From a virus, in IMG/VR virus record IMGVR_UViG_3300025874_000006, positions 1 through 64,000 of that record: DNA of 64,000 bases; one strand, 5' to 3'. Positions within the stretch are counted from its first letter, which is position 1. Every line of letters begins with the position of its first letter. Shown one piece after another: positions 98 through 36,174 of this stretch. The notes beneath the pieces were generated by a model. The model did not search any database, was not told where the DNA came from, and saw only the letters and a program-made list of their open reading frames with translations. The position numbers were made by a program, and so were the translations under genes.

Positions 98-123
98 GTG
101 ACCAATCAGCGATAGTTGGTCAC
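98..123. promoter_or_regulatory. 26-bp dyad operator-like element, copy 1
   Basis: An inverted repeat GTGACCAA, 10 bp, TTGGTCAC. It overlaps the stop codon of the membrane-protein gene ending at 120 and sits 9 bp upstream of the -35 box. The same 8-10-8 layout and 9-bp spacing recur at 17962, 35772 and 36149. No T-run follows it, so a terminator is less likely than a protein-binding site. Confidence 0.65.
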
Positions 124-545
124 GATGTTACTAGAGTGTCAACTAAATTCATTAGTACCGCAGTGCCTGATATAGAACTTCCTATCATAATTGCTTTGTC
201 ATTCCAACAGTGACCGACATATACCCATGCAGTAGCGGCTGACGCATAACATATCTGTCCGGTGATACCAAACCCTGCGCTCATAGCGAATACTCCAACC
301 ACACCAAGTACAGTCGCTCCCCACTTAACATAACTGTCAATCGTACCCGTAGGTGTTGCAGGCTTTAAGTCTTCGACTTCTAATTGTAGTTCTTCCATCT
401 CTTGCTTGAGACGTTTGCGTTCGACATTAAGTTCCATAGCAAGTCTCCCTGCCTTGGACATCGTACTTCCGGAAAACTCCGATTGAATTTCGGGACTAAG
501 TTGACCCTCGACTCTTGCAACTCGTTCGTCTTCGTTCATAGTCAT
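120..545 (-). CDS. small membrane protein with coiled-coil N-half
   Basis: A 141-aa protein of unknown function. The first 60 residues are charged and helical, with a K/E/L-rich coiled-coil stretch near 40-60. The C-half has about three hydrophobic segments. The stretch SYVKWGATV and the later W-x-DKAIMI resemble the protein at 41730-41987 (WYVKWAATV, WEDRALII), so the two look like paralogues. The start at 545 overlaps the upstream stop as ATGA. It is the last gene of a five-gene minus-strand run. Confidence 0.75.
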   Translation of the reverse strand: MTMNEDERVARVEGQLSPEIQSEFSGSTMSKAGRLAMELNVERKRLKQEMEELQLEVEDLKPATPTGTIDSYVKWGATVLGVVGVFAMSAGFGITGQICYASAATAWVYVGHCWNDKAIMIGSSISGTAVLMNLVDTLVTS

Positions 546-718
546 TGGTCATCCCGAGCAACACTTCCGCTCATATCAATAAAGATTTTGAGTGTTCGAT
601 TATCGTCTTGTAGACTGTACCGCACACTTTCATTTTCACGTAAGTAACGAACGTAGGTACGGCCTTCGCAGTCTATCACTTCAAATCTATTGATGTTATT
701 CATTTCAGTAGTCATCAT
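542..718 (-). CDS. hypothetical protein, 58 aa
   Basis: A small soluble protein not recognised from sequence. The ATG at 718 is chosen because it forms an ATGA overlap with the upstream stop and follows AAGGAGAT. An extended upstream reading would run into the neighbour. It sits within a tightly overlapping run of small genes typical of phage early regions. Confidence 0.7.
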   Translation of the reverse strand: MMTTEMNNINRFEVIDCEGRTYVRYLRENESVRYSLQDDNRTLKIFIDMSGSVARDDQ

Positions 719-1098
719 CTTAGTATCTCCTTCCAATCCTTACGAGTGGTTTCGTTATCAGGTTCCATTAGTTCGACTTTAACATCCCCTCCCGAAGCTT
801 CGGCAGCATCCTGTATTTGTTTCCATATACCGGCAGTATTCATTCTCAGACATTCCTGAGTCTTGTCGCATATGTATCGACTACCACTATGACCAATAAA
901 GATGAAAGAATCCATAGTCTCTTCAACGTCAACGATACCAGAGTTCATACGCCAACTATCACTACCCAGATATCCACCACTCCACCCCGCTAGGACTTTG
1001 TACAACACTTCTTCTGTTCGACCATACCCAGTATTACCACTTTTTTTAATGTCAGTAATTTTAAGAACGACCCAGTTGTCTGGCGTGTAGTCACTCAT
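715..1098 (-). CDS. hypothetical protein, 127 aa
   Basis: Not recognised. Soluble, mixed composition, with a W-rich N-half. The ATG at 1098 is preceded by GGAGAGAACA, a good ribosome binding site, and overlaps the end of the upstream gene by 8 bp. The longer in-frame start at 1128 lacks this support. Confidence 0.72.
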   Translation of the reverse strand: MSDYTPDNWVVLKITDIKKSGNTGYGRTEEVLYKVLAGWSGGYLGSDSWRMNSGIVDVEETMDSFIFIGHSGSRYICDKTQECLRMNTAGIWKQIQDAAEASGGDVKVELMEPDNETTRKDWKEILR

Positions 1099-1315
1099 TG
1101 TTCTCTCCGAACCCACTATCCCATTCACCGAATACTTCTGGTGATTGTTCTGCTGCCTGTTCCATATAGTACTCGCCTGGATAATGTCTAAGACATCGGT
1201 ATGCTTCTTTGCGTACAGCTGATGGTACTCTTGGAGTCTTCTTGGGGTCTAGTAGGTCTACTAGAAACTGACGTGTATTGTTCACCGCCCACCGGCGTTC
1301 GTTCGGCATTGTCAT
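1091..1315 (-). CDS. hypothetical protein, 74 aa
   Basis: A small basic N-half and acidic C-end. Phrases such as RKEAYRCLRHYPGEY recur in phage small proteins of unknown role. The start at 1315 overlaps the preceding stop as ATGA. Confidence 0.72.
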   Translation of the reverse strand: MTMPNERRWAVNNTRQFLVDLLDPKKTPRVPSAVRKEAYRCLRHYPGEYYMEQAAEQSPEVFGEWDSGFGENNE

Positions 1316-1608
1316 CTTCGCATACTCGCTAAATCTTTCATCTGTTGTACATCAATCACAGGGATTGCATTGGACTTGTGCATTGTACCGATACCCTTGA
1401 CTAGGGTGCCGGTGTAGTTTAACTTTTCCTTGATTTGGGTATTGAGAGTACCCGAATCGCAAGATTTGTAAACCGGAGTCTCCCTTCGATAGGGTTCACT
1501 CTGTACTTCCATAGGTTGGAATTTGGGTGCGGGTTTCTTCTTGGTAGACCAAGCGTTGTAACTCTTCTTGCGACCAGTGGTAGTGTGGCGCATGGAACCG
1601 TGCATCAT
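1312..1608 (-). CDS. hypothetical basic protein, 98 aa
   Basis: A lysine- and arginine-rich soluble protein with no recognised domain. It is first in the operon driven by the promoter at 1638-1667. Two adjacent ATG codons (1608 and 1605) are possible starts, with GAGG upstream. Confidence 0.7.
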   Translation of the reverse strand: MMHGSMRHTTTGRKKSYNAWSTKKKPAPKFQPMEVQSEPYRRETPVYKSCDSGTLNTQIKEKLNYTGTLVKGIGTMHKSNAIPVIDVQQMKDLASMRR

Positions 1609-1637
1609 AATAAAACCTCAATATACATTATGTGTAC

Positions 1638-1667
1638 ATTATACGACACATTCTAGGGTGTTGTCAA
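1638..1667 (-). promoter_or_regulatory. sigma70-type promoter
   Basis: Minus strand TTGACA, 18 bp, TATAAT, about 30 bp upstream of the gene starting at 1608. Likely drives the five overlapping genes down to 120. Confidence 0.7.
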
Positions 1668-1769
1668 GTGTACAATCTTCTTGCATTCGTTAAATCTTCG
1701 GATACTGGTGAGTACTCCGAACAGGTCATCGTCTGCCTTCTGGGAGAAACTCAACCAGATGATTAACAT
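1653..1769 (-). CDS. possible 38-aa peptide
   Basis: A short frame starting at ATG 1769 with a hydrophobic N-terminus (MLIIWLSFSQ) and ending at 1653. No convincing ribosome binding site was seen, and its 3' end runs through the -35 box of the next promoter. It fills most of the gap 1609-1789, which otherwise holds only that promoter. Low confidence. Confidence 0.25.
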   Translation of the reverse strand: MLIIWLSFSQKADDDLFGVLTSIRRFNECKKIVHLTTP

Positions 1770-1789
1770 GACCCGTAGTGTCCAGAGTC

Positions 1790-2338
1790 CTACCTCTCTA
1801 GGAACCACTCCGGTACCTCACGGTTAGTCCACTTAGCAAAGGATTTCTTCTCTTCACGGTAGTACTTGCGATAACTCTCAGGTACACTATCTGTCTTACA
1901 GTGGTCAGGCATACACTCAGGCATCTTAGTTTCTTTCAATCGTATGTCGATATTCTTTGGTGAAAACCACAACATACCACCTAACTTATCATAGGTCATA
2001 TGGACACGGCCATAACGTTTGGTGTACTCCTTTGCAGTTGCCTGAAAGTGTTTGTACAACCATCGGTAGTTCTTGTCGTTCTCACGACACCAGATTGCTG
2101 ATGGGTGGTTCTTGTGGGCGACCTTATATAGTATGTTTTCACGAGCTTGTTCGGCGACTAAATAATGGTCTACCATGCGTTTTCCGGACTTGGAAGGTCG
2201 TCTCTCAACAGTGCCGTCAAGAACGCGATGCGCAGTAGAAAGTAACTGGCCGTATTCTGTGACCATCTTAACCACATGTTTGTCACACATCATCTGTGCT
2301 GATATGACTGGATCATCGTGTAATCTAAAAATATTCAT
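1790..2338 (-). CDS. conserved phage protein with CDKHVVKM motif
   Basis: A 182-aa soluble protein. The N-terminus (NIF-x4-DP, then CDKHVVKM and a QLLSTAHRVL helix) is a pattern I associate with a conserved protein of marine T4-like phages, function unknown. Many H, W and C residues could suggest a metal or nucleic-acid site, but this is inference. It is expressed from its own promoter at 2368-2396. Confidence 0.75.
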   Translation of the reverse strand: MNIFRLHDDPVISAQMMCDKHVVKMVTEYGQLLSTAHRVLDGTVERRPSKSGKRMVDHYLVAEQARENILYKVAHKNHPSAIWCRENDKNYRWLYKHFQATAKEYTKRYGRVHMTYDKLGGMLWFSPKNIDIRLKETKMPECMPDHCKTDSVPESYRKYYREEKKSFAKWTNREVPEWFLER

Positions 2339-2367
2339 GTATTATCCCCTCTCGGTAACAGAACTAT

Positions 2368-2396
2368 ATTGTAACAGAAAAATATGGCTTTGTCAA
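2368..2396 (-). promoter_or_regulatory. sigma70-type promoter
   Basis: Minus strand TTGACA, 17 bp, TACAAT. Drives the CDKHVVKM gene. It is back-to-back with the plus-strand late promoter at 2416, so this is a divergent control region. Confidence 0.7.
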
Positions 2397-2415
2397 TGGC
2401 TAACCATAAAAAAAG

Positions 2416-2423
2416 TATAAATA
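2416..2423 (+). promoter_or_regulatory. T4-type late promoter
   Basis: A perfect TATAAATA box on the plus strand, the T4 late consensus. It lies only 5 bp before the ATG at 2429, so the transcript would be leaderless or nearly so, or the promoter belongs to the pair of genes with a different start. Confidence 0.6.
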
Positions 2424-2428
2424 AACCT

Positions 2429-2683
2429 ATGAATACAGAATTATTTGACTTTGGTTTCACCGTAGTAGATGAATCGGAACTCGAAGCTGTCCAACAGTTA
2501 GAATCCGTATCTGATAGTGCAGATGATTACCAGACTCGACTTGAAAACTTGTACAACGCGATTCAACCGTTGTTAACCAACCTGAAGGTGAACCCTGAGA
2601 AAGAGTACATCCTCTGGCCGAATCGACTCGACAAGATAGAACAATTCGAAACACACATACAAAACATCTATAAGGGATCCTAA
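2429..2683 (+). CDS. hypothetical protein, 84 aa
   Basis: An acidic helical protein, not recognised. The ATG at 2429 gives MNTELFDFGF; the longer frame from 2384 would start upstream of the late promoter. It is followed after 3 bp by the next plus-strand gene. With it, it forms an isolated two-gene unit among minus-strand genes. Confidence 0.72.
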   Translation: MNTELFDFGFTVVDESELEAVQQLESVSDSADDYQTRLENLYNAIQPLLTNLKVNPEKEYILWPNRLDKIEQFETHIQNIYKGS

Positions 2684-2686
2684 CCA

Positions 2687-3532
2687 ATGTTTTATAACAG
2701 TAAAGACGAAGTTATCTTAACCGATGGCACCAAACAAGAATTCGTGAGTGGCGAGTATAAAGAAGTATATGCCCGTTTCTTTAATAACGCACTAAAGGTA
2801 ACTACCACTAAATCTGGTAAGTATCTTCGTTATAAAAATGATGAAGTGAATATGGTAGAAGAATCTCTATCACGTGCACCTATGTTCTGTAACGCACTAA
2901 AGACCCGTGGATATAAAAATATCCTATTCGTTGGTCATTTCAATGATGCTCAGACACATTGGATGTTAGACCAGTTCGCTGGTCGTATGATTGACCTTCT
3001 ACCACCAGAACGTTCAGCAATGCAAACCTTTCCGGATATGAACATCGTAGCGCAGTTCATTCCATTGGTAATGAAGACCTTTAAATATGAAGGTGACTTC
3101 ACAATCGTACGTCCACCAGAAAATAAGTATCAGGGTGTCATGCACGAACTCTATATTATTAATGAAATGATGCCACAGACACAAACTTGTTCACAACAGT
3201 ACAAGCACGGTCAAGACGCTTGGACTCTAGAAGGTGAACACGAAAAATTTGATGCAGTAGTCTTCCTAGGTGTTCCTATGACAGACAAACAAGTTGGTTT
3301 CGAAGAGTCTCAAGTACGAGAAATCTTCGCTCCATACTGCACCCCAGAATTTGAAATGGTTGACATTTATTACGGAGCACCGTCTTCGGTTAAATGGTAC
3401 AATGGTGAAAAGAAAGAAAGTGACTCTATGGTCGACACAGCATTCTCGATTCGTTCCCAGTGGGACGAAGATACCGCTAAAGGCCGCCCGGAAGAATCAG
3501 ACATCATGAAAAGAATGATTTCTGTATTCTAA
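2687..3532 (+). CDS. conserved hypothetical protein, 281 aa
   Basis: A soluble globular protein with no domain I can name. The segment ILFVGHFNDAQTHWMLD and later DAVVFLGVPM look like beta-strand/turn cores of a Rossmann-like fold, but this is weak. It ends just before a strong plus-strand terminator. Promoter type suggests late expression. Confidence 0.75.
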   Translation: MFYNSKDEVILTDGTKQEFVSGEYKEVYARFFNNALKVTTTKSGKYLRYKNDEVNMVEESLSRAPMFCNALKTRGYKNILFVGHFNDAQTHWMLDQFAGRMIDLLPPERSAMQTFPDMNIVAQFIPLVMKTFKYEGDFTIVRPPENKYQGVMHELYIINEMMPQTQTCSQQYKHGQDAWTLEGEHEKFDAVVFLGVPMTDKQVGFEESQVREIFAPYCTPEFEMVDIYYGAPSSVKWYNGEKKESDSMVDTAFSIRSQWDEDTAKGRPEESDIMKRMISVF

Positions 3533-3560
3533 GGAACTTACCCGACAGTAAGAATGAAGA

Positions 3561-3586
3561 AGGGACTCGAAAGAGTCCCTTTTTTT
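3561..3586 (+). terminator. intrinsic terminator, probably bidirectional
   Basis: A perfect 8-bp stem AGGGACTC/GAGTCCCT with a GAAA loop and a T-run on the plus strand. It ends the plus-strand pair. The 43-aa minus-strand gene stops at its other flank, so it separates convergent transcription units. Confidence 0.85.
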
Positions 3587-3716
3587 ATATCCAGAATAGT
3601 ACTACGCCAAAGATGAAGCACCAGATTAATACGTTGGGTCTAAAGTCCCATACGGACATGAAGTCATGTGCAGTATCTAATACAAAATCTTTTGTTACTT
3701 TAAGAAGCTTCTCCAT
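3585..3716 (-). CDS. small single-pass membrane protein, 43 aa
   Basis: Starts MEKLLKVTKDF and ends with a hydrophobic segment (WCFIFGVVLFWI) just before the stop. It overlaps the end of the upstream gene by 17 bp and has GGAAATGG-type purines before the ATG. Function unknown; a small inner-membrane protein is likely. Confidence 0.6.
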   Translation of the reverse strand: MEKLLKVTKDFVLDTAHDFMSVWDFRPNVLIWCFIFGVVLFWI

Positions 3717-4356
3717 TTCCATCTTCTAACTCTCCTACCTCTATAGTTGCATTTTCAGGCAGACTTAATTTAATATTAGAATGCCCATGATGAATAACAA
3801 ATTTAACCTTACTGAACTCTCTGAAGAAACCAGACCATATAGGTCTCCAGTTACTTGCCATACGATGCACGTTTAGTGCAGTTCGGTTGGACTCTAAGAA
3901 GTTATCTGTATAACTGTCAATGGTCATATCGAACATAGAGTCGAACCCATACAGATGAACCTCAGTCGCCTTCATAATGCGACACGCATAGTCCACAGCC
4001 ATATGACCGCACGAATAGTTACTCGCTGCTTCGGACAGTTTGTGTCCCGGCAACTGCGCATATGGGGGTACGTATGTGTGGAACCCCTTAATGTTCTGTG
4101 AGTACTTTAAGTAGAACGCTGCGTTGACCTCCATCCATTTGCGAGGTCGTGTACCCAGAATCCAGTCGTACTCATCGAGGTGCACTTTACTTTCACTGAG
4201 CGCTTGCATCATCTTAAAGTCGACCATACAAGACGCGAATACATCTTCCTTGCTTAGTTCGATAGGAGGCATGTTACATACGACAAGTTCTCCCTCTGTA
4301 CCTTTCTTGTATAGGGTAGCATGGTCTCCGTTACCCATTACATTAACACGTCTCAT
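3700..4356 (-). CDS. DUF115/sialyltransferase-like protein
   Basis: A 218-aa protein. It opens with a Rossmann-like VMGNGDHATLY and has a central SCGHMAVDYACRIM followed by VHLYGFDSMF. The last motif resembles the conserved 'YGxD' core of DUF115 and CST-type sialyltransferases. A sugar-transfer or sugar-modifying role fits its neighbours, but the assignment is by pattern only. The 5' end overlaps the lipoprotein gene as ATGA. Confidence 0.55.
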   Translation of the reverse strand: MRRVNVMGNGDHATLYKKGTEGELVVCNMPPIELSKEDVFASCMVDFKMMQALSESKVHLDEYDWILGTRPRKWMEVNAAFYLKYSQNIKGFHTYVPPYAQLPGHKLSEAASNYSCGHMAVDYACRIMKATEVHLYGFDSMFDMTIDSYTDNFLESNRTALNVHRMASNWRPIWSGFFREFSKVKFVIHHGHSNIKLSLPENATIEVGELEDGNGEAS

Positions 4357-4715
4357 TTTGGTTCCTTGTGGTATGTACCGTATATGCAGTGTGCTAGTTC
4401 ATGCCCCCAAGTCAGTGTATGTTCATCATCAACTTTACTTGGAGATACAACATGAATCTCACACCTTATCATTTCTCTGTTTTCTTTTTTCAGGAACCAC
4501 AGAGCTAGTCCTTCGACTCTTTGTCCTTTGGGCTTCTTACCTTCTACCGCCTTATTCAACTCTTCCCTACTATCATATGTATAGACGGTTATCGGGAACT
4601 GAACGCCAGTGTAATCTTGTGTCCCTGATAGTTTTTTATCTGGGGAAGGGTCACATGATACCAAAAACAACACCATGATGGCAAGTGTTATTTTAGATAG
4701 GATACTTTGTAGCAT
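4353..4715 (-). CDS. lipoprotein with HELAH metalloprotease-like motif
   Basis: A 120-aa protein. It has a lipoprotein signal peptide ending in LVSC (Cys about residue 21) and a C-terminal TWGHELAHCIYGTYH that fits the HExxH zinc-binding site of metallopeptidases. No third ligand can be assigned with confidence. Its placement with lysis and surface-modification genes suggests action at the outer membrane or periplasm. The late promoter at 4737 lies 22 bp upstream. Confidence 0.7.
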   Translation of the reverse strand: MLQSILSKITLAIMVLFLVSCDPSPDKKLSGTQDYTGVQFPITVYTYDSREELNKAVEGKKPKGQRVEGLALWFLKKENREMIRCEIHVVSPSKVDDEHTLTWGHELAHCIYGTYHKEPK

Positions 4716-5043
4716 GACCTTCCTCTATTAGTAGATTATTTATACATGTCCACTCGTTGTAGTCGGTCTCGACAAATACCTCTGCGAGTATTCTACCGTA
4801 CTTACCTGTCTTGTGAGTAATTATGCTTACGGTTGTCCCTTCGGGGGCCATCTGGTTAACATACTCTTTCGCTTCTAGACCTTTCTTCTTTTCGTCAAGG
4901 TTTCTAGTACGAGACTCGTATGCATCAATACCGTAAAGACGGAGACGTTGGTTAGCGTAAACAAGACCAAATCCTAGATCAATGTCAACATCGACTGTGT
5001 CTCCGTCCACCCATCTGCGAACTATTGCTTGATAGTTATACAT
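4693..5043 (-). CDS. staphylococcal-nuclease-like thermonuclease
   Basis: A 116-aa single SNase domain. VDGDTVDVDIDLGF, RLRLYGIDAYE and a later GKYGRILAEVF with LIEEGHA match the conserved strands and Asp/Arg/Glu active-site regions of the family. No signal peptide is seen, so it probably acts in the cytoplasm, perhaps on host DNA or RNA. Overlaps the HELAH lipoprotein gene by 23 bp. Confidence 0.85.
   Translation of the reverse strand: MYNYQAIVRRWVDGDTVDVDIDLGFGLVYANQRLRLYGIDAYESRTRNLDEKKKGLEAKEYVNQMAPEGTTVSIITHKTGKYGRILAEVFVETDYNEWTCINNLLIEEGHATKYPI
4737..4744 (-). promoter_or_regulatory. T4-type late promoter
   Basis: TATAAATA on the minus strand inside the thermonuclease gene, 22 bp upstream of the lipoprotein start at 4715. 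Being inside a coding region makes a chance match possible. Confidence 0.45.
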
Positions 5044-5046
5044 ATA

Positions 5047-5529: not shown

Positions 5530-5546
5530 ATTATATTCTCCAGTAA

Positions 5547-6206: not shown

Positions 6207-6219
6207 TATATTTCCAAAA

Positions 6220-6252
6220 CAAAAAAAAGACGGGAAAGTTTCCAATCCCGTC
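6220..6252 (-). terminator. intrinsic terminator
   Basis: Minus-strand stem GACGGGA/TCCCGTC followed by a run of eight or nine T. It ends the sulfotransferase-like gene and lies 14 bp upstream of the next start. Confidence 0.85.
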
Positions 6253-6279
6253 TTTATCTATCTTAAACTTAACTGAAGA

Positions 6280-7337: not shown

Positions 7338-7338
7338 G

Positions 7339-8328
7339 TTAATCCCTATAATCGTTAAGTGTGAAATTGGTGCCGTGCATCTTCATCAAGTCTCTTTCGT
7401 GATTGGTGTATACCAATACTTCGGGGTCTTCGATTAAGAAATCACAGCTCTTACAAAAGTCTGGATATTCTTCGGTGCGGTGTTGCTCACGTAGAGTCTC
7501 ATACTCTTCACCAAAAAAGATGTCAAGTATGTTATCTTCTGAACAGTGTCCTAGTACAGCTTCTTCGTCACGTCCAAGGACTTGACAACATGGATGTACT
7601 GCGCCTGTCTTCTTCTCAAGTCCTCCCGCACGTATCACTACGTCCGGAGAGAACGGTCGACCACAGGTCTTCTTCTTACCCTCACGTACACCGGACTCCG
7701 ATATGTCTTGAACACCAGACCAGTTGTGCATCTTCCAAATCTCGGTCTTAGTTCCGAGTTCTTCTACCAATGCTTTGTACTTCTCTAGTTCTGTGTCGAG
7801 GTTATCATTGTCGGTGATTAGGTGGTATGTAGATACAACACAGTCCGAACCAGACTCTTCTACGTATGCAACCATCTCTTGGATGTTACGTTTGATTTGA
7901 GCAAAGTGTCCTCCTACTGCATTGTACATCCACTTGCTGTAGTCTTGTTCATCCGCACCGATGAACGAGAATCGATAGAAGTCCAGACCAGCGTCCACGC
8001 AGTCGCGCATGTACTGACCTTCCATCTTAAATCCATTAGAGAAGATGAATGCCTTCGCACCATACTTCTTCACTACCTTGATGTATTCGGGTAGATTCTT
8101 CGCCATTGTGGCTTCACCGGAACCGTCTAGGTTCACAACATTGAGACCATACTGTGCACAGTCCGCAACATACTTCTCGAACTCATCGAGTTTCATGATG
8201 CGGCGGAACCCTTTATGTCGTCCACCCTCACGTAAGTCTTGTGGACACATAGAACATGAGTAGTTACATCCACCCGCGACTTCAATTACTGCGCGGTCAA
8301 TCTGAAATGTTTCTCTAGTCATTTCCAT
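7339..8328 (-). CDS. radical SAM protein with SPASM-like C-terminus
   Basis: A 329-aa protein. The CxxxCxxC cluster motif (CNYSCSMC) is near residue 21 and GSGEAT follows as in the SAM-binding region. The C-terminal part has HPCCQVLG and FCKSCDF, cysteines typical of a SPASM/auxiliary cluster. Such enzymes modify peptides or sugars by radical chemistry; the substrate is unknown. It lies between glycosyltransferase-like and carbamoyltransferase genes, so a role in making an unusual sugar or surface group is a fair inference. Confidence 0.82.
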   Translation of the reverse strand: MEMTRETFQIDRAVIEVAGGCNYSCSMCPQDLREGGRHKGFRRIMKLDEFEKYVADCAQYGLNVVNLDGSGEATMAKNLPEYIKVVKKYGAKAFIFSNGFKMEGQYMRDCVDAGLDFYRFSFIGADEQDYSKWMYNAVGGHFAQIKRNIQEMVAYVEESGSDCVVSTYHLITDNDNLDTELEKYKALVEELGTKTEIWKMHNWSGVQDISESGVREGKKKTCGRPFSPDVVIRAGGLEKKTGAVHPCCQVLGRDEEAVLGHCSEDNILDIFFGEEYETLREQHRTEEYPDFCKSCDFLIEDPEVLVYTNHERDLMKMHGTNFTLNDYRD

Positions 8329-12378: not shown

Positions 12379-12429
12379 AACCTCTCACATTTGAAGTATC
12401 ATTATACTACTATATGAGAGGTTTGTCAA
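12379..12429 (-). promoter_or_regulatory. sigma70 promoter threaded through an inverted repeat
   Basis: Minus strand TTGACA (12429-12424), 17 bp, TATAAT (12406-12401). The repeat arms AACCTCTCA (12423-12415) and TGAGAGGTT (12387-12379) bracket the -10 box, and T7 follows the 3' arm. Read-through transcripts can form a terminator-like hairpin. Transcripts starting here lack the 5' arm. Confidence 0.75.
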
Positions 12430-17342: not shown

Positions 17343-17617
17343 GCCGCAAACTCCGACTTAGGTGAGAACCGTGGGTACAATCGGAACCGTCCCTGACTAT
17401 TAATGGATTTCGTGTAGATAGTTGGTTCAGGAAGCCCTCTCTCATCTAACGCATCAAAGAACAACTGTGCATCACAGTCGCACTCTAACCATACGCTCTT
17501 GTCATTGAAGAAAGAATACTCCGAGATCTTGTTCATGAACCCTAGGTTCTCTACAGTGCGTACATCAACCTTCAGGTACGAATGGCTTGGATCAGAAATA
17601 TAAGTGATTGCTTTCAT
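17339..17617 (-). CDS. hypothetical protein, 92 aa
   Basis: A soluble mixed alpha/beta protein, not recognised. It is flanked by start/stop overlaps on both sides, within the operon led by the promoter at 17924. Confidence 0.68.
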   Translation of the reverse strand: MKAITYISDPSHSYLKVDVRTVENLGFMNKISEYSFFNDKSVWLECDCDAQLFFDALDERGLPEPTIYTKSINSQGRFRLYPRFSPKSEFAA

Positions 17618-17889
17618 TACACTGACTCCTTTACTTTCATTTTAGAAGAACTATGGTCGATTATAAGGTCGCGAACACGTTCACGGTCAAGAGAGTCGCC
17701 GTGACCCCAAGACTCGTGACGAGTAGGACTAGAACAGATTTCTACATACTTAACGATAGCACGTTCAACGACTTCAACGTTCAGACCCTCAATTGGGTAT
17801 AGACCGTCATACGCATAGAACGACAGAACATAGTTGCGGAAGTTAGTGAACTCAGGGTTTTTTCTCAAACCGAAGTAATTACTAGACAT
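17617..17889 (-). CDS. hypothetical protein, 90 aa
   Basis: Begins MSSNYFGLRKNPEFTNFRNY; the aromatic-rich N-half is followed by a helical C-half. Not recognised. The ATG at 17889 is preferred to an upstream TTG; AGAGAGA lies before it. It is the first gene of a unit controlled by the dyad-linked promoter. Confidence 0.7.
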   Translation of the reverse strand: MSSNYFGLRKNPEFTNFRNYVLSFYAYDGLYPIEGLNVEVVERAIVKYVEICSSPTRHESWGHGDSLDRERVRDLIIDHSSSKMKVKESV

Positions 17890-17923: not shown

Positions 17924-17952
17924 ATTATACTAGTTTTGATAACATGATGCAA
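17924..17952 (-). promoter_or_regulatory. sigma70-type promoter with upstream dyad
   Basis: Minus strand TTGCAT, 17 bp, TATAAT. The dyad copy 2 starts 9 bp upstream of the -35 box, with the same AGTAAAC linker core as at the left end. Confidence 0.78.
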
Positions 17953-17961
17953 GCAGTAAAC

Positions 17962-17987
17962 GTGACCCAAACAAAGAAAATGGTCAC
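17962..17987. promoter_or_regulatory. 26-bp dyad operator-like element, copy 2
   Basis: GTGACCAT, 10 bp, TGGGTCAC on the minus strand, immediately after the stop codon of the gene ending at 17988. Same length and same 9-bp distance to the -35 box as the other copies. Confidence 0.65.
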
Positions 17988-18215
17988 TTAGTCTACTTCT
18001 TCGATGGTGATACGGTACTTCTTACCGTTCATATCTACCACGTCCAGTCTCTTGGTAGTGGATATCATATAACCTTCTCTAGGGTCTAAGTCCATTTTCA
18101 CGTGACCTACTTCGCGGACAACACCCCCACATTCACTGTAACCATCTTCCAACATGGCTGGTCTAATAATTGTGTGTGCGATGTAATCGCAGTATGCCAT
18201 ACCATTCTTATTCAT
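17988..18215 (-). CDS. hypothetical protein, 75 aa
   Basis: A soluble protein with several beta-strand-like stretches. Not recognised. Its start overlaps the stop of the next gene upstream by 1 bp. Confidence 0.68.
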   Translation of the reverse strand: MNKNGMAYCDYIAHTIIRPAMLEDGYSECGGVVREVGHVKMDLDPREGYMISTTKRLDVVDMNGKKYRITIEEVD

Positions 18216-18718
18216 TATGCTACCTCTTTCATTTGGGAGTAATATTTAAGTGATTCTTGATAGTCCATCCAGTCGCCCTTACAGGTCTCTACCTGAGTTG
18301 AATAGTTTGACTGTTCACCGTCAAGGTGTTGTATCCAAGAAGATACCTTTCGTTTGAGAATGCCGTAAGCAGGCATGTACTCGGAATACTCGGTGGAGGA
18401 TTGTGCAACCCACTCACCTTCGGGGGTTCTCTCCATATAGATTGGAGTTTCCCAATGTTCGTGGTGGTTTGATGCATCGAAGTCGATGGCATCGATGAGG
18501 TCTTGGCTGATGATGTACTCGCCATAGTATTCATTGCTTTGGTTGATGAGTGTGGCCAACTCACTCCAGTAGGCATCATCTTGTGCCTCTGCTAGAGTAC
18601 AGTCGAAGAAGTAGGTGTTACCACCCTTCATCTTCCAATGTTGAGGGCACTGGCCCTGACCGTCCCACGCATGGGCACCATAGTTTTCACTACACTGTGT
18701 TTGAACAACAATCTTCAT
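18215..18718 (-). CDS. conserved hypothetical protein, 167 aa
   Basis: Begins MKIVVQTQCSENYGAHAWDG, a pattern seen in conserved phage proteins of unknown role. Rich in W, Y, H and Q. Soluble. Overlaps the small membrane gene as TAATG. Confidence 0.7.
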   Translation of the reverse strand: MKIVVQTQCSENYGAHAWDGQGQCPQHWKMKGGNTYFFDCTLAEAQDDAYWSELATLINQSNEYYGEYIISQDLIDAIDFDASNHHEHWETPIYMERTPEGEWVAQSSTEYSEYMPAYGILKRKVSSWIQHLDGEQSNYSTQVETCKGDWMDYQESLKYYSQMKEVA

Positions 18719-28135: not shown

Positions 28136-29206
28136 TCAGTAAGAATCTTTCTTTGCTCTCATGCGTTCTTGATGTTTTTCAATCGCTTTACGTCTAGCAA
28201 CTGCTTTCAAGTCTGTCTTGGCAGGCTGGGAAGCCATAGCGACTTTATCACGTCTGTGCTTAGGAGTAGTCTTAATTGCATGTGTAAGACGGCGATAATC
28301 ATCGTCCTTTGCTTCCGACAAGTCTGTAGATTCTTTTATATCGTCCATTAAAGCCTTTACGGTCTTCATGTCCAGACCCATCTTCTTAGCAATCCACTGT
28401 GCAGATTTACCTTGGTCAATATAGCCATGGAACTCTTTCATCCTACCTTCTTCAAGGTCTACAGACTCGTTACGCTTAGACTTCTGAAAAGCATTGTAAT
28501 CTTTACGTCTCTTAGCATCTGCTGCTTTCTCAGCAGGAGTCATCTGTGATACTGGTTTCTTACCTTCCTCAACAGACTCTTTCATCGAACCAAAGCCTGG
28601 GTCGAACCCAGTAATGTCACGAAGGTTGGCAGTTGCCGCAAGACGTAGGTAACGTAACTTAATACCCTTACTCTCGAACTCTGCATAATCGACTTCACCG
28701 TCACTTGACTTCTGTGACAGGTTATATAGAAGACCTTTCTTAACATCAATCTTAACTAAAGGAAAGATGTCACCTGCCATACTGTTGCGAGTAGCATAAC
28801 GGAATACTGTTTGACCAGTCTTAACCTTTGCTTCCTTGCCAACATATGACTTATCACCAGCATCAAGACCGAACAGTACGATACCGTCTACCCTACCGTG
28901 GCCACATACACCAATCACTTTGTAACCTTTCTTGGTTCCGTAAGCAACTACCTTTTCTTCACCCCAGTTACTAGGTGACTTATCTAAGAATTGTTGGTAT
29001 GCTTCGTCAAGTTCAACAGATTCTTTCATAAGATAAGCATCAACACCGCCAGTAGACTTTAGTTTCCATTTCTTAGCCGCTTTCTGTGCCGCATCATATG
29101 AAGTAGGTGCAGTAACTACTACCTTACCTTTCTTAGCATGAACTACAGTGTAGGTCAATTCCTTTGCTTCTACAAGACTTTCTCTTAACTCACTAAACTG
29201 TTTCAC
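28136..29206 (-). CDS. capsid-targeted multi-site protein, 356 aa
   Basis: Begins MKQFSELRESLVEAKE. LVE followed by A, LDE by A, LEE by G and LSE by A occur at roughly residues 13, 68, 258 and 300. Each of the last three is embedded in a similar ES-hydrophobic-x-L-x-E context, so the protein could be cut into several pieces like a polyprotein. The central part (YGTKKGYKVIGVCGHGRVDG) is a globular domain I cannot name. The C-terminus is a basic, helix-rich tail (RRKAIEKHQERMRAKK). Confidence 0.78.
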   Translation of the reverse strand: MKQFSELRESLVEAKELTYTVVHAKKGKVVVTAPTSYDAAQKAAKKWKLKSTGGVDAYLMKESVELDEAYQQFLDKSPSNWGEEKVVAYGTKKGYKVIGVCGHGRVDGIVLFGLDAGDKSYVGKEAKVKTGQTVFRYATRNSMAGDIFPLVKIDVKKGLLYNLSQKSSDGEVDYAEFESKGIKLRYLRLAATANLRDITGFDPGFGSMKESVEEGKKPVSQMTPAEKAADAKRRKDYNAFQKSKRNESVDLEEGRMKEFHGYIDQGKSAQWIAKKMGLDMKTVKALMDDIKESTDLSEAKDDDYRRLTHAIKTTPKHRRDKVAMASQPAKTDLKAVARRKAIEKHQERMRAKKDSY

Positions 29207-29208
29207 GT

Positions 29209-29391: not shown

Positions 29392-29400
29392 AACTAATCC

Positions 29401-31376: not shown

Positions 31377-31741
31377 TTGTTATCGCCTTTAGACCTGTTT
31401 CTTTTGCGTTCGATTTCTTGCTTACGAACAACCTTTACAAGTTTCTTAGCTTGGCGATCTATACGTGCTTGTACCGCAGGTTTTTCGAGTCTCTTCTCTA
31501 TACCCTTCTTACGAGCAACAGACATCTCACCTTTATCCTGACCCTTAGTGATCTTAGAGACCATAGCCTTACGCGCCTGTCGGCGAGCACGCTTCTTTAG
31601 GGTGTCCATAGAGGCGAACTTTCTCTCGGCACGCTTACGTGCCATTGCGATACGAGCTTTATTCTTTTTCATTCGCATCGCCATTTTGCGGCGTTGCTGC
31701 ATATCTAAAACTTCAGATATGAGATCTTTAAATGACAACAT
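31373..31741 (-). CDS. capsid-targeted highly basic protein, 122 aa
   Basis: MLSFKDLISEV starts the protein (ISE-V site). The rest is one long Arg/Lys/Ala/Met helix (e.g. RMKKNKARIAMARKRAERK), strongly positively charged. This fits an internal head protein bound to packaged DNA, like T4 IP proteins in role though not in sequence. ATGA overlap with the nucleotidylyltransferase-like gene. Confidence 0.78.
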   Translation of the reverse strand: MLSFKDLISEVLDMQQRRKMAMRMKKNKARIAMARKRAERKFASMDTLKKRARRQARKAMVSKITKGQDKGEMSVARKKGIEKRLEKPAVQARIDRQAKKLVKVVRKQEIERKRNRSKGDNK

Positions 31742-31774
31742 GTCATATAATCCTTCTGTTGGTTTATCCCATTA

Positions 31775-32995
31775 TTATCTTCGGGCTGAGTCCCAGCCCT
31801 TTAATATATTAGATGAAAAGTTGTTGTATGAAAATTCCATACGGTCAACCAGTTTCACCGCATCACCACCAAGTGTGTCAATTGCTACATAACCTTCTTC
31901 ACCAGTCACTTTGTAACCATCAGAAGTTTTCACGAAAGTATCAATCGATTTAAGTTTGTCTAAACTATTTATAAGTTTTAATTTGACTAAAACTATTAAT
32001 TTTTGCAATTCGAACATTTTAACTAAGTTTGCACGATTTGAAGCAGAAAAGAACTCCATTTCGTCCGCATACTTCTGTCTCCACGTCTCTTTACCACGTT
32101 CAGACTTCTTACTGTCAATCTCTTTTTTGTAGTAAGCTTGTCTATTACTTATCAATCCGTTAACATGCTTTTTTGAGTCGGGCAGTAATGCACCGGCACG
32201 AACGAAAGAGTTGTTGTATGTCTCAATCGACTGTGCGAGTTTAGGATTATTCTCTAATGCACGTAGAGTTGTTGCAGAGGTTTGTTTGAATAACTTACCA
32301 ATTTGAGTGAGAGTCTTATTAATGTCTTTGGTTTCTTTCTCTGACATGGTGGCTTTGGTCACATCTTTCAACATTGCGTCCTGAGACCATACGTTCCTAG
32401 ATTTTTTTAATTTAGAAACGTCCACTCCATAAGAGGCCTTCATCGATTCAAAGTCGCTCCCAGTATAGGTAGTGTGCCATACTATACCAATCTTTGCATC
32501 ACGAACTTCTTTCCCTTGGTCATACGGTACTGCATATGCAATAGTGTTCGGGTGGAACACACTATACTTTTGTCCATCGATAGTCTTAGTAGACACATCA
32601 CCTTTACCGAACAGGAAGTCTCCCTGAATAACACCCTTGATTCCCAACTCAGGAAGATACCGCAGAGCGTCCTTCAACTTAGCGTTCAGGTCTCCCGAAG
32701 TATCATCATCGATGTCGGCATCTGTCTTGTAGACCTTTGGGTTCTTATTGAAGATACCTTTCTTAGCAACAAAGAACTTACCGTCACTTGGATCAGTACC
32801 GCAGAAGACAGCAGGAGCGCCATCCCACTTTACGGACACACTCCCTTTAGAAGTACCAGCCAACATATCTCGCAGACCCCGAAGAGCAAAGATTGCCTCA
32901 CGGGTTCCTTGGACACCACCATAAAGGACTTTGTCCTCAATGTGAGTCATGTGAGTATTTTTACTCTCCGTTATGAAGTCTGCGAAGTTTTCCAT
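31775..32995 (-). CDS. capsid-targeted ligase-like KxDG protein
   Basis: A 406-aa protein. MENFADFITES is the targeting start. VSVKWDGAPAVF carries KxDG at 56-59, the nucleotidyl-lysine motif of DNA/RNA ligases and capping enzymes. GVIQGDFLF (about 121-129) fits motif III with Asp for Glu, and KIGIVWHTTY (168-177) fits motif IIIa. A motif V lysine pair could not be placed with certainty. The C-half is helical. A covalent nucleotidyltransferase acting on RNA or DNA is the best guess. Confidence 0.75.
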   Translation of the reverse strand: MENFADFITESKNTHMTHIEDKVLYGGVQGTREAIFALRGLRDMLAGTSKGSVSVKWDGAPAVFCGTDPSDGKFFVAKKGIFNKNPKVYKTDADIDDDTSGDLNAKLKDALRYLPELGIKGVIQGDFLFGKGDVSTKTIDGQKYSVFHPNTIAYAVPYDQGKEVRDAKIGIVWHTTYTGSDFESMKASYGVDVSKLKKSRNVWSQDAMLKDVTKATMSEKETKDINKTLTQIGKLFKQTSATTLRALENNPKLAQSIETYNNSFVRAGALLPDSKKHVNGLISNRQAYYKKEIDSKKSERGKETWRQKYADEMEFFSASNRANLVKMFELQKLIVLVKLKLINSLDKLKSIDTFVKTSDGYKVTGEEGYVAIDTLGGDAVKLVDRMEFSYNNFSSNILKGWDSARR

Positions 32996-33777
32996 TATAC
33001 GTTGTCTACCAAAATTATATCGAATGTTGCGGATACCTGAGTTGCTTGACCAGCAAGCACATCAATCTGGATGTCATGTTTTTCAGGGATTACTAAAGGT
33101 ACTGGATACGAGATATCCAAACTTTGTCCGCCTGCTGCGTTTAGATTCGCCTTGATTCTAAACACACCACCATTAAGAATTTCTCGGCAGAACAAACGAT
33201 ATGTCATTCGTGAGTTGGTCGATGCTTTGTCAGAACCCAAGTGAATACCTAACAAGTACGCGGTCTTTCCAGCCGGTACTGTGTAGATTGCCATCAATGT
33301 CTGACCAAGTCCAGCAATAATCTTTGCTGCGAGTACTGCACCTAAGTTAATCTCAATATCACTTTGGTTTGTGACGGTAGACATTTTAACACGGAACACA
33401 CGAGAGAATATGAGTGTGCCCGTAGCACCAATCTCAATCGTTTCGCTCTGTAGATTATAGTTCTCATCCAGACCGTCTACTATTACTTCTTCTCCGACTT
33501 CAGTTGCAGATGAAACTGAAACTAAACCGTTAGCTGGATATGGATATGCGATAGACCCATCATTACCGTCCCAGATAGTTCCGGCCGTTACGTCTCCATC
33601 GGTCGCACCAAACTTATTGATATGATTGTATCCTGTAAGAGCACCAGCTGCAAGTGGAATGTTACTTGCCGCACCAGAGGTGTTTAGGATGTTACCGTCT
33701 TTGTCCGCAAGCATCACCACTTCGTGGAGGTCTGCGTTGAATAAATTTTGTTGTCTTACTACACTAAATTGTGCCAT
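32995..33777 (-). CDS. structural-type beta-rich protein, 260 aa
   Basis: Starts MAQFSVVRQQNLFNADLHEV at 33777, after AGGGGAACAATT. Composition is Gly/Ala/Thr/Ile-rich with repeated short beta-strands, typical of virion surface or tail proteins. Not recognised. The longer frame from 33831 would overlap the upstream gene and lacks a ribosome binding site. Confidence 0.7.
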   Translation of the reverse strand: MAQFSVVRQQNLFNADLHEVVMLADKDGNILNTSGAASNIPLAAGALTGYNHINKFGATDGDVTAGTIWDGNDGSIAYPYPANGLVSVSSATEVGEEVIVDGLDENYNLQSETIEIGATGTLIFSRVFRVKMSTVTNQSDIEINLGAVLAAKIIAGLGQTLMAIYTVPAGKTAYLLGIHLGSDKASTNSRMTYRLFCREILNGGVFRIKANLNAAGGQSLDISYPVPLVIPEKHDIQIDVLAGQATQVSATFDIILVDNV

Positions 33778-33787
33778 AATTGTTCCC

Positions 33788-34939
33788 CTATAATAGTTTT
33801 TTACCAGTTGCCGGTTTACTCTTATAATCACACATTATGTGCGATGGATAGATTCCACCCTGTTTGTTTCGTATATTTACCTTAAAGTCGAAGTATCGAT
33901 TACTGAATACAATGTCTATTCGCTTACCGTTGCCTTGTTTACCACCGTATTGTATCTCGACATCTCCAGTGATAGTGGCATACTGCGGGTTCTTAGAGTC
34001 AGACATTTCCCAGAAGTACACCTTACCGCCTTCCATGCCGTGAACCATCCAATAATTAGAACCAATACAAGTCTGTAAGAATTTCTTTAACTTTTGTTTA
34101 TCTAATTTTGCCTTGACGTTAGGGAATTTTTTTCTTCCGTAATTGTTAAATACATCACAGAATATATCATCCTCTATACCGAAGGTATCTAATATAGCCT
34201 TGCCCATAGTAGTCTGTATTGACCCAGACTTTATGTCAGACGGAGTAAATATCTGAACAACACCAGCGTTCATGAAAGTCAAAGTACTTGAGAACTTCAA
34301 TGAAAGGTAACTGAACTTTCCGTTAGCGTGTTTTAATGTAATGTCAGTTAACTTTTTACCGTGTTCTGCGTGATTATATGGAGCAATAATCAACTGGTTA
34401 CCTTGCATTTTAATGGGCCGACTTTGGTTCATACCACCTTCCGCAATAACTTCAGTTACCGGAGATCTCATCTCCTCAGCACATCTAACAAGTACCTTCT
34501 CGACTTCTTTTGAATACGTCTTATTACTTTTTAAACCAGACAGTTGTTCGTTCAATACTTCAACGAAGTCTTTCTCAAACTTAATCCCTTTGTTTACTCT
34601 GGTACCGCCAGCAGGTTGACCACCAAACTCTTCGGTCTTCTCCAATTTACCGAGAGACAGTTCGACTCTGGAACTCTGGCCTTGCATCTTACCACCAACT
34701 ATTACCTTCCGTTGATTGGTAGGTAATAGTTTCAGAGCAAGAATCTTGCCAGCAATGTCTACTGGTTCCCCACTAGAGTACTTCGTGTTGTTGATAACAA
34801 CATACTCAGCAACGAGAATGCCGTCATCCGTGACAAAGTTATTAGACTTACCATCCATCTGAAAAACTTTTTGCACGAGAACTTCGGAACGATATTCTCT
34901 ATTTTCTCTCGTTATCTCATTGTATGATAAATTTGCCAT
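33788..34939 (-). CDS. conserved hypothetical protein, 383 aa
   Basis: A soluble protein. LTDITLKHANGKFSYLSLKF might be the D...xxK part of a PD-(D/E)XK nuclease fold, but no clear acidic partner is seen. YNHAEHGKKL and NNYGRKKFPNVKAK are other conserved-looking parts. Late promoter at 34980. Confidence 0.65.
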   Translation of the reverse strand: MANLSYNEITRENREYRSEVLVQKVFQMDGKSNNFVTDDGILVAEYVVINNTKYSSGEPVDIAGKILALKLLPTNQRKVIVGGKMQGQSSRVELSLGKLEKTEEFGGQPAGGTRVNKGIKFEKDFVEVLNEQLSGLKSNKTYSKEVEKVLVRCAEEMRSPVTEVIAEGGMNQSRPIKMQGNQLIIAPYNHAEHGKKLTDITLKHANGKFSYLSLKFSSTLTFMNAGVVQIFTPSDIKSGSIQTTMGKAILDTFGIEDDIFCDVFNNYGRKKFPNVKAKLDKQKLKKFLQTCIGSNYWMVHGMEGGKVYFWEMSDSKNPQYATITGDVEIQYGGKQGNGKRIDIVFSNRYFDFKVNIRNKQGGIYPSHIMCDYKSKPATGKKLL

Positions 34940-34979
34940 TAACCAGTCCTCTTTACTCTCTATAGAGTATAACAGATAC

Positions 34980-34987
34980 TATTTATA
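34980..34987 (-). promoter_or_regulatory. T4-type late promoter
   Basis: TATAAATA on the minus strand overlapping the stop of the exonuclease gene and 41 bp upstream of the 383-aa gene. It separates an early unit from a late one. Confidence 0.7.
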
Positions 34988-35702
34988 TGTCAAGAACATT
35001 TGCACTATTTTCTTCATTATATTGGGCAATAGTGTCGCGAAGTGGACGTACCCAGTTGTCACGATGTTCAATAAACACTTGAGGTTCGTGATTATCAACG
35101 GAGATAATTGTAACGAGTTGAGTGATGGGCATTCCAGTGCGTTCTTCCCACATGATGGAATATGCAGACTCTTGCATGAAGTAGTTCTTAATCCAGTCAA
35201 GACGTTTGGGTTTCATAGAAGTCTTGTAGTCGATGATAGACAATTTACCATCGAAGACGCCTACGCAATCCACACGGCCGGCAACACCCAGATGGGTAGA
35301 GTACAGTGGTGCTTCTTGAGCATGAACGACAGAAAGACGTTCGTCAAGGATTGGTTTAATCTTTAGGAAGGAATCTATTAGGTCAGGAGTACGTTTGGTC
35401 AACTTCTGTTCACCAGTGTCGATATCCATAGCCATGTACTTGTCATAGTCTGGATCGTTGTTGACATACTGTTCACAGATTTCGTGAACCGCAGTACCAC
35501 GCGTAGATGCGCGATAGGAGACACGGTTCGCTTCTTTCTCACCAACACGAGCACGCCATTTAGCAATGGAGTCGCGAGAGAGAATAGAAAGAACAGTAGT
35601 GATAGAAGGTAAGGTGATACCTTCGGGGGTTTCGTATTGACGACCAGTGTCCGTAGTTACGGCAGTCATCTCAGTCAGTTCCACGGGAACATGTTTAAAC
35701 AT
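34983..35702 (-). CDS. PD-(D/E)XK exonuclease (Cas4/RecB/MGME1-like)
   Basis: A 239-aa protein. TRGTAVHEICEQYV is the helical His region, GVAGRVDCVGVFDGKLSIIDYKTSMK holds the catalytic D...DxK core, and YFMQESAYSIMWEE has the QxxxY motif typical of RecB/Cas4-like exonucleases. Role in DNA resection during recombination is likely. Start 35702 (MFKHVPVEL) follows promoter copy 1. The first codons are duplicated in a truncated copy at 36017. Confidence 0.85.
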   Translation of the reverse strand: MFKHVPVELTEMTAVTTDTGRQYETPEGITLPSITTVLSILSRDSIAKWRARVGEKEANRVSYRASTRGTAVHEICEQYVNNDPDYDKYMAMDIDTGEQKLTKRTPDLIDSFLKIKPILDERLSVVHAQEAPLYSTHLGVAGRVDCVGVFDGKLSIIDYKTSMKPKRLDWIKNYFMQESAYSIMWEERTGMPITQLVTIISVDNHEPQVFIEHRDNWVRPLRDTIAQYNEENSANVLDI

Positions 35703-35733
35703 AATATAATCCAATTCAATTTAATATACCCCT

Positions 35734-35762
35734 ATTATAAAGGATTTGAATGGATTTGTCAA
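35734..35762 (-). promoter_or_regulatory. perfect sigma70 promoter, copy 1
   Basis: Minus strand TTGACA, 17 bp, TATAAT. Drives the exonuclease gene. Sequence identical to copy 2 through the whole promoter. Confidence 0.88.
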
Positions 35763-35771
35763 TAGGTAAAT

Positions 35772-35797
35772 GTGACTAATTTTACTATATTGGTCAA
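35772..35797. promoter_or_regulatory. 26-bp dyad element, degenerate copy
   Basis: TTGACCAA, 10 bp, TTAGTCAC on the minus strand, 9 bp upstream of the -35 box. Two arm positions differ from the perfect copies, so this site may be weakened. Confidence 0.55.
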
Positions 35798-35887
35798 ATA
35801 AGAATCCCCACGAATACGGGGGCTCTTGTAGGGTACTTTATGTCTTGGAGAACCTTAACTTACTGCTCTGGCATTTTTCTCATGCAC

Positions 35888-35911
35888 AAAAAAACCGCCC
35901 AAAAGCGGTTT
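35888..35911 (-). terminator. intrinsic terminator
   Basis: Minus-strand stem AACCGC/GCGGTT followed by T7. It stops transcription coming from the tRNA-Ala side and from promoter copy 2. The stretch 35912-36016 holds no gene that I can see. Confidence 0.85.
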
Positions 35912-36016
35912 CTTCGATGTTACTTGTCGGCTAAGCTTTCTACAGCGTCGTGAGACTGGAGGCCGTCCCAGAACTCTCACCAGATGCCCTAATTATAGGC
36001 TTTGATAGCAGACGAG

Positions 36017-36079
36017 TCAATCACCGCTGAGAATAGCGGCAGTCATTTCAGTCAAAGGTATAGGGTCGTGTGTAAACAT
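36017..36079 (-). pseudogene. truncated exonuclease gene start
   Basis: MFTHDPIPLTEMTA (36079 down) aligns with MFKHVPVELTEMTA of the exonuclease, then a new short tail runs to a stop after 20 codons. It sits behind promoter copy 2 exactly as the intact gene sits behind copy 1. It is either the remnant of a duplicated gene or a short expressed leader. Confidence 0.7.
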
Positions 36080-36110
36080 AATATAATCCAATTCAATTTA
36101 ATATACCCCT

Positions 36111-36139
36111 ATTATAAAGGATTTGAATGGATTTGTCAA
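36111..36139 (-). promoter_or_regulatory. perfect sigma70 promoter, copy 2
   Basis: Minus strand TTGACA, 17 bp, TATAAT. Now drives only the 20-codon remnant and then meets the terminator at 35888, so its RNA would be about 200 nt. Confidence 0.85.
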
Positions 36140-36148
36140 GGGTGATAG

Positions 36149-36174
36149 GTGACCAATTTAGGACTGTTGGTCAC
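36149..36174. promoter_or_regulatory. 26-bp dyad operator-like element, copy 3
   Basis: Perfect arms GTGACCAA and TTGGTCAC with 10 bp between, 9 bp upstream of the -35 box of promoter copy 2. Confidence 0.7.

Follow-up and report, generated by a model that had tools for sequence, protein, structure and literature searches.

The DNA considered here is the window, that is, the stretch of 64,000 nucleotides forming the first 64 kb of the 151,103-bp virus record IMGVR_UViG_3300025874_000006 (G000), and the question it raises is what function is served by an interrupted palindrome of 26 bp that stands exactly 9 bp upstream of the -35 box of several of its promoters. The palindrome (dyad), 9-bp linker and promoter make up a module of 64 bp. 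The dyad is a real, conserved and promoter-locked palindrome; as to its role, comparison of sequences inclines us to regard it as the operator of a dimeric protein, most likely one activating some of the sigma-70-type promoters in an uncultivated clade of marine T4-like phages.

The record is T4-like, with genes for UvsX, UvsY, a gp33-like coactivator, a prohead protease, and other T4-type proteins. Its terminase shows 89% identity to that of Phage C48C1, the nearest named phage, and 45-48% identity to those of 24 other records listed, which are phages of Methylophilales, Pelagibacter, and cyanobacteria. The minus strand holds 193 of the 212 open reading frames (ORFs) called in the record by a simple in-house rule.

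Dyad promoters of the record

Four dyads are found in the window, all on the minus strand, as are the promoters, linkers, hairpins, and genes described with them. The first, GTGACCAA-N10-TTGGTCAC (98..123), has no mismatches and lies upstream of the promoter of the left-edge gene (ATG at 27), which comprises the -35 box TTGCGT (88-83), a 17-bp spacer, and the -10 box GATAAT (65-60), at 60..88 in all; the linker is GTTTACTAC (89-97), and the ORF upstream (120..545, 141 aa, PF20189 DUF6552) has its TGA stop codon inside an arm of the dyad. The second, GTGACCAT-N10-TGGGTCAC (17962..17987), has two mismatches, one per arm, and is joined by the linker GTTTACTGC (17953-17961) to a promoter at 17924..17952 (TTGCAT, 17 bp, TATAAT). 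The first gene of the unit read from it, at 17617..17889, codes for 90 aa and has homologues in marine T4-like phages. The linkers of these two sites have GTTTACT in common.

The third dyad, TTGACCAA-N10-TTAGTCAC (35772..35797, two mismatches), is followed by the linker ATTTACCTA (35763-35771) and by a promoter at 35734..35762 (TTGACA, 17 bp, TATAAT) driving a PD-(D/E)XK exonuclease gene (34983..35702, PF12705 match); a terminator-like hairpin (35800..35827, z -2.67) lies directly upstream of the dyad. The fourth, with perfect arms (36149..36174, no mismatches), belongs to a duplicate of this promoter (36111..36139, again TTGACA, 17 bp, TATAAT; linker CTATCACCC, 36140-36148) and has upstream of it a hairpin weaker than the one at 35800 (36177..36203, z -1.19). 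This duplicate leads only into a 20-codon remnant with its ATG at 36079. The remnant (36017-36079) is what is left of a second exonuclease allele behind the intact promoter, and a full-length allele of its type is present in the related contigs L018 and L084.

The positions of the four dyads, their common 9-bp distance to the -35 box, and the linker sequence shared by two of them, all given in a preliminary description of the window, are borne out, and the centre that it placed near -57 comes to ca. -57.5 if transcription is assumed to start 7 bp after the -10 box. The regulon of four sites that it proposed consists of real sites, but the set is larger, and the promoter at 36149 drives only the exonuclease remnant. 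Three further sites, at 146886, 148910, and 149547, lie in the record outside the window and have the same geometry of a 9-bp linker and a 17-bp spacer. The last of them (149547-149572) is the contig-end copy of the dyad at 98, since the two ends of the record (window 1-1693 and record 149450-151103) show 89.8% identity over 1511 aligned bases, the first 127 being identical. Such imperfect terminal copies may reflect circularity, the genome having been closed with two strain variants, or else repetition of the early cassette. With one contig-end pair and one local duplication (35772 and 36149) among the seven sites, about five are independent.

Matches to the arms with up to three mismatches number five in the window, versus a mean of 0.27 in 100 shuffled sequences, none of which held five. 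The only match besides the four dyads, at 7546, has three mismatches and lies inside a called ORF; together with those at 71864 and 145815 in the record it was regarded as a coding look-alike and left out of the operator count. It is worth mentioning that the record encodes at 145793-146200 a Lys-rich protein with repeats of the (PVKKK) type, whose codons mimic the dyad.

Random placement of the dyads relative to promoters, which the preliminary description had named as the outcome that would speak against it, is not what the whole record displays. On its two strands TTG-N21-ATAAT occurs at 54 sites, of which seven have a dyad, defined as at least 11 matches out of 12 to the half-sites of GTGACY-N14-RGTCAC, and all seven have it at a linker of 9, though linkers from 0 to 40 were allowed. 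The record holds 11 such dyads in total, seven of them at promoters, while 30 first-order Markov copies of it hold a mean of 1.5 and four at the most, and no copy has a dyad adjoining a TTG-N21-ATAAT promoter. The twofold symmetric sequence is conserved beyond chance. Under a stricter choice of promoters, those with a dyad are a minority, 5 of the 25 located within 60 nt of a called gene start.

The module in kin phages and beyond

The module recurs in relatives, where the preliminary description had suggested looking for the 26-bp pattern: a scan of IMG/VR with GTGAC-N16-GTCAC-N9-TTG-N21-ATAAT returned 67 stretches, 66 of which were judged kin, with L019 dropped as a chance match. The dyad promoters of the kin mostly precede short leaders and small genes. 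The 66 loci (574,452 bases) contain 35 unique dyads with up to one mismatch, 24 of them at 9 bp before a strict TTG-N21-ATAAT promoter, three at 9 bp before a relaxed one, one at 29 bp, one at 46 bp (in the tandem of L072), and six elsewhere. Exact arms occur in these loci only at a spacing of 14 (26 unique cases) and at none of the other spacings from 8 to 25. In a control scan comparing linkers of 9 and 10 bp only, the consensus-hexamer form of the module gave no match with the 10-bp linker and 28 sites in 28 loci, representing six distinct sequences, with the 9-bp one. Among the sites of the record and its kin, relaxed ones included, all 26 of a first non-redundant set have a pyrimidine (C or T) at position 6 and a purine (G or A) at position 21, neither being demanded by the search pattern. 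The set was later enlarged to 34 sites by a script that demanded the inner AC and GT, and in it pair 6 is C/G in 17 sites, T/A in nine, and non-symmetric in eight.

Cleaner tests than the pattern-fetched loci are the whole-record test described above, the second site of the genome G002, and the loci fetched by protein similarity. G002 (152,753 bases) is a far relative, in which 96 of 212 G000 proteins were found at a median identity of 50%. It has two dyads matching in 12 of 12 positions, both 9 bp from a TTGACA box; one of the two promoters has a 16-bp spacer, which is outside the reach of the fetching pattern. As a linker of 9 is thus found with both 16- and 17-bp spacers, it is from the -35 box, and not from the -10 box, that the dyad keeps a constant distance. 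G014 (L216), fetched by protein similarity, has a dyad before its exonuclease gene, and G003 has one dyad matching in 10 of 12 positions at 9 bp. When the orthologous exonuclease promoters of the window (two copies), L084/L018, L059, L071, and G014 are compared, the dyad core, the 9-bp linker, and the hexamers are kept while the letters of the loop and linker change. Hairpin-prone sequence lies above these promoters in the kin as well, the folding having been done on the window copies only.

Over 255 sequence sources, the linkers between a dyad and a strict promoter were of 9 (44 sites), 19 (two), 20 (one), 29 (one), 41 (two), 46 (one), and 50 bp (one). The cases of 41 and 50 are coding repeats of the Lys-rich gene, whose dyads in the kin are look-alikes and do not count as operators, and that of 46 is the outer member of the L072 tandem. 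The linkers of 19, 19, and 20 come from three contigs sharing one orthologous promoter, into which a CTTTTTTTCAAAATAAGTG-like stretch has been inserted, and that of 29 from L064. Counted to the -10 box, these longer linkers add 10 or 11 and 21 bp, that is, about one and two helical turns. They represent two independent events at most and are suggestive of helical phasing, to which, as put forward in the preliminary description, they lend a little independent support. In L072 (11560-11720) two dyads stand back to back with 11 bp between them, and each has on its outer side a TTGA at a distance of 9 bp; they may form a divergent double operator. A UP-like AAATAAGT block is found just above the -35 box in the dyadless G000 promoters at 12429 and 16907, and in the kin L153, L159, and L172 such a block lies between the dyad and the -35 box, the linker being longer by about one turn.

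Outside these kin the module is absent from the records tested. It was not found with up to three mismatches in C48C1, nor in T4, RB49, KVP40, Aeh1, and S-PM2. Five of six records of named marine relatives contain dyads with up to one mismatch (one or two each in Melnitz-3, Mosig, P-SSM7, and P-SSM4, none in S-H38), none of them with a promoter at 9 bp. Of the 26 genes called in the 143-151 kb cluster, in which three dyad sites are located, 19 are missing from C48C1. No exact match to the module was found among 84,980 prokaryote species, each represented by one genome, where by our estimate about two would be expected by chance, and four bins of metagenome-assembled genomes with a kin terminase gave no match at 0-2 mismatches, three of the four having one with three. 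The dyad by itself was rejected as a marker. Exact 16-bp dyads occur in 17 IMG/VR stretches, of which L071 has a promoter at 9 bp and L119 a poor one (TTGACT-17-GACAAT) at that distance; the bare dyad is non-diagnostic because in the remaining 15 the best pair of hexamers lies at some other distance. By these comparisons the module is restricted, among the records tested, to this clade, and no description of it was recognised in the open-access literature, searched mostly at the level of titles and abstracts.

A predicted dimeric activator and its alternatives

Comparison of sequences thus establishes that the module exists, that it stands at a constant distance from the -35 box, that core and geometry are kept while the loop and linker change, and that it is restricted to one clade among the records tested; protein binding, dimeric state, activation, and timing are what we infer from it. 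The dimer site of fixed geometry put forward in the preliminary description is strengthened by the kin loci, and the choice that it left between an activator and a repressor depends on reasoning of the same kind. Each half-site would present the core TGAC(C/T), with the two centres ca. 20 bp (two helical turns) apart and thus on one face of the DNA. The predicted dimer would cover -70 to -45, just upstream of the position of the proximal C-terminal domain of the polymerase alpha subunit (alpha-CTD), which would fall at -44 to -36, i.e., in the 9-bp linker. It may recruit RNA polymerase through alpha-CTD and/or region 4 of sigma, and so control a subset of sigma-70-type promoters, early or middle. 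The dyad would then stand in for the A/T-rich UP-like DNA of dyadless promoters in the same genome, and one phage seems to have two interchangeable kinds of module upstream of its promoters, UP-like DNA and the dyad. That the distance to the -35 box is fixed would be explained most simply by an upstream dimer touching alpha-CTD, a reading made by analogy with activation of the P2 Ogr type or of class I, as a likeness and with no claim of membership. To our knowledge, gene timing in marine T4-like phages lacking MotA/AsiA is poorly known; a portable module of exact geometry may predict co-controlled genes and serve as bait for their regulator.

The dyad recognised by P2 Ogr is centred near -55 and the activator contacts the alpha subunit; here the centre would be at -57.5 under the assumed start. 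Class I activators such as CRP bind at -61.5; the resemblance to them lies in a dimer site just upstream of the alpha-CTD position and in the dependence on the face of the helix, while here the half-sites are 20 bp apart and their sequence is unlike that of CRP. The late promoters of P2 (Ogr) and P4 (Delta) have a TGT-N12-ACA dyad and a zinc-finger activator (PMC3931495). They likewise display a spaced dyad at several phage operons, served there by a small phage activator, but the half-site and spacing found here are different (TGACY-N14-RGTCA) and the -35 and -10 boxes are near consensus. A motif scan of the six frames of the record gave no exact match to the Ogr-type CX2CX22CX4C, and none of nine looser cysteine matches was judged an Ogr. 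T4 middle promoters also combine a phage-specific element with a sigma-70 -10 box in a T4-like phage. In them a MotA box replaces the -35 box at -30 (PMC2988021), whereas here the -35 box is kept and the element is at -57.5; moreover, MotA/AsiA were found in none of five marine records. The dyadless G000 promoters with their UP-like DNA look like the early 'uber' promoters of T4, which combine strong sigma-70 boxes with an upstream element (PMC2988021); the T4 promoters need no viral factor, and at a subset of the promoters considered here the palindrome replaces the A/T-rich DNA.

Two contrasts between promoters with and without a dyad lend weak support to activation. The fraction of A/T 4-20 bp above the -35 box is 0.79 in dyadless and 0.61 in dyad promoters (p 0.009; 19 versus 5 promoters, one of four stretches tested). 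TTGACA is found in 12 of 20 dyadless and one of five dyad promoters of G000 (p 0.16), and in 8 of the 34 non-redundant dyad sites of G000 and kin when these are set against the same 12 of 20 (p 0.01), a rarity suggestive of an activator. Several points weigh against activation by a dimer. The A/T contrast is partly built in, the dyad arms being G+C-rich, and a looser comparison of -35 strength over all G000 gene starts gave no difference (p 0.55). Many kin dyad promoters have the consensus TTGACA and perhaps need no activator, some sites are paralogous copies with a common loop and leader, and the linker counts are not independent of the choice of loci, most of which were fetched by the 9-bp pattern itself. 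In G003 only one of five dyads with at least 11 of 12 matches is at a strict promoter, two of the others lying in the Lys-rich gene. Finally, no convincing regulator was found among the proteins of the record by Pfam and PHROG scans, which returned late-transcription proteins, DsbA, and two weak matches (several of these scans among the best 25 families listed), or by the cysteine-motif scan of G000.

The best-surviving alternative bears on which protein binds the dyad, and in part coincides with the reading of the dyad as a dimeric operator: phages may borrow the site of a host transcription factor in order to sense the state of the host, which we hold possible, if only tentatively. No phage-encoded regulator has been recognised, and a search for MotA and AsiA that found its T4 positive control gave neither protein in G000, G002, G003, G014, and C48C1; moreover, immediate-early use would need a host or an injected protein. 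A host protein fits less well with the lack of exact matches in the prokaryote genomes, a weak argument given the number expected by chance, with the four bins of kin terminase being named for conflicting taxa, and with the lack of the module in the near relative C48C1. It is more doubtful that the dyad promoters form a third T4-like promoter class, in which a phage-encoded dimer yet to be named, of a fold outside the profile libraries, would act at -57.5 with helical-turn spacing in place of MotA/AsiA.

As regards function, the main rival to an activator is a repressor or shut-off factor acting as a dimer: a protein of the phage would deny alpha-CTD its site at -40 to -60 and silence early promoters after the first minutes. 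We consider this rather unlikely. The sigma-70 boxes are good, several with the consensus TTGACA, the dyad covers the UP-element position, and T4 early transcription is shut off partly by unexplained means (PMC2988021). On the other hand, the dyad overlaps neither the -35 box, the -10 box, nor the start, contact with polymerase better fits the fixed -35 distance and the linkers longer by one and two turns, and the -35 boxes of dyad sites depart more from consensus, a modest difference that is null in the looser comparison.

It is improbable that no protein binds and that the dyad is passive cargo in a promoter cassette that recombination has recently copied to several places. It is true that several promoters of the genome and its kin share their leaders, spacers, and loops (TTTTCTTTGTTTGG and CTATCGCTGA among the latter), and that the sites at 35772 and 36149 are a duplication. 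Yet the core is kept where loop, linker, and spacer diverge, as in the exonuclease promoters and G002, both back-to-back dyads of L072 face a TTGA at 9 bp, and pair 6 changes on both sides mostly with its symmetry kept.

The dyad was also considered as a hairpin at the 3' end of the upstream mRNA, because at five of the seven sites (98, 17962, 146886, 148910, and 149547) the upstream gene ends in or against it. Among six dyads folded as RNA, the perfect ones at 98 (z -3.92) and 36149 (z -2.97) form hairpins, that at 17962 less so (z -2.08), and those at 148910 (z -1.59), 146886 (z -0.79), and 35772 (z -0.60) are unremarkable. The units at 35772 and 36149 resemble as a whole the PeSL (promoter/stem-loop) cassettes because of the separate hairpin just upstream of the dyad. 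Reportedly, these cassettes (Arbiol 2010, Comeau 2014) consist of a repeated intergenic stem-loop with an early promoter, placed before small variable genes. Stem-loop and promoter units of this name occur in T4-like phages according to PMC4503421, in which, as in PMC4177764, papers on them are among the references, and the dyad adjoins an early-type promoter at seven places. The dyad makes, however, a poor RNA stem or terminator, as judged from its sequence: across the 34 non-redundant sites, four consecutive T never follow the dyad, 21 sites show a mismatch at pair 7, and C-A mismatches at pair 6 (five) are no rarer than U-G (three), a pattern that fits two equivalent half-sites read by a protein. 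With an RNA element having, moreover, no need of an exact 9-bp distance to a downstream -35 box, this is the least probable of the explanations.

Candidate binders and other genes

Two of the family matches in the record point weakly to DNA binding, one to PF05443 ROS_MUCR (E 0.06) and the other to phrog_3855, 'HTH DNA binding protein' (HTH, helix-turn-helix; E 0.0036). The latter falls on residues 233-291 of the 356-aa ORF at 28136-29206, which is partly shared with G002 and G003 and was not found in C48C1. Gene subtraction gave six genes common to the four dyad genomes compared for which no counterpart was found in C48C1, the tblastn comparison covering the C48C1 genome less 697 bases: 1653-1808, 46049-46723 (kinase-like), 47822-48061 (DsbA), 48058-48333, 144209-144595, and 148165-148428.

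The DsbA homologue (47822..48061, minus strand, 79 aa, PF11126) is the sole annotated transcription regulator among the six. Its model is a two-helix hairpin (pLDDT 88.6) with no match in PDB at E<=0.001. The T4 DsbA is a DNA-binding protein of ca. 10 kDa with low-affinity A/T-rich sites at two late promoters (PMC2988020). In G002 the DsbA ORF (17986-18261) ends 15 bp before a dyad (from 18277), and in a first comparison DsbA was present in three of three dyad genomes versus none of six dyadless marine records. It was found in the dyad-bearing G000, G002, G003, G004, and G014, not in the dyad-bearing fragments G001, G021, and G023, and it was found in the dyadless G015 and G016; in all it occurs in 1023 phage records, T2 and T6 included. 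Once these fragments and dyadless records are added it tracks the dyad too poorly to be accepted as the binder, and it is a weak candidate.

The gene 148165-148428 is read behind the dyad at 148910. Of 58 kin loci of this gene, 10 have a dyad at a linker of 8-10 within ca. 1.5 kb, a further three have a linker of 19 or 20, and the other 45 have none of these. A kin copy gave a beta-rich model without a useful PDB match. The family is small, is found at these 58 viral loci, partly behind dyad promoters, and has a conserved PKKQWSVSRRKFRDL-like motif.

Several other genes of the window are of note. A dihaem cytochrome c peroxidase of the MauG type (PF03150, E 1.6e-22) is encoded at 37456-38910 in this phage. 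At 36372-45035 there are nine tRNA genes with ORFs for HNH-type endonucleases among them, and an Hsp20 heat-shock protein, annotated in C48C1 too, is encoded at 60648-61187.

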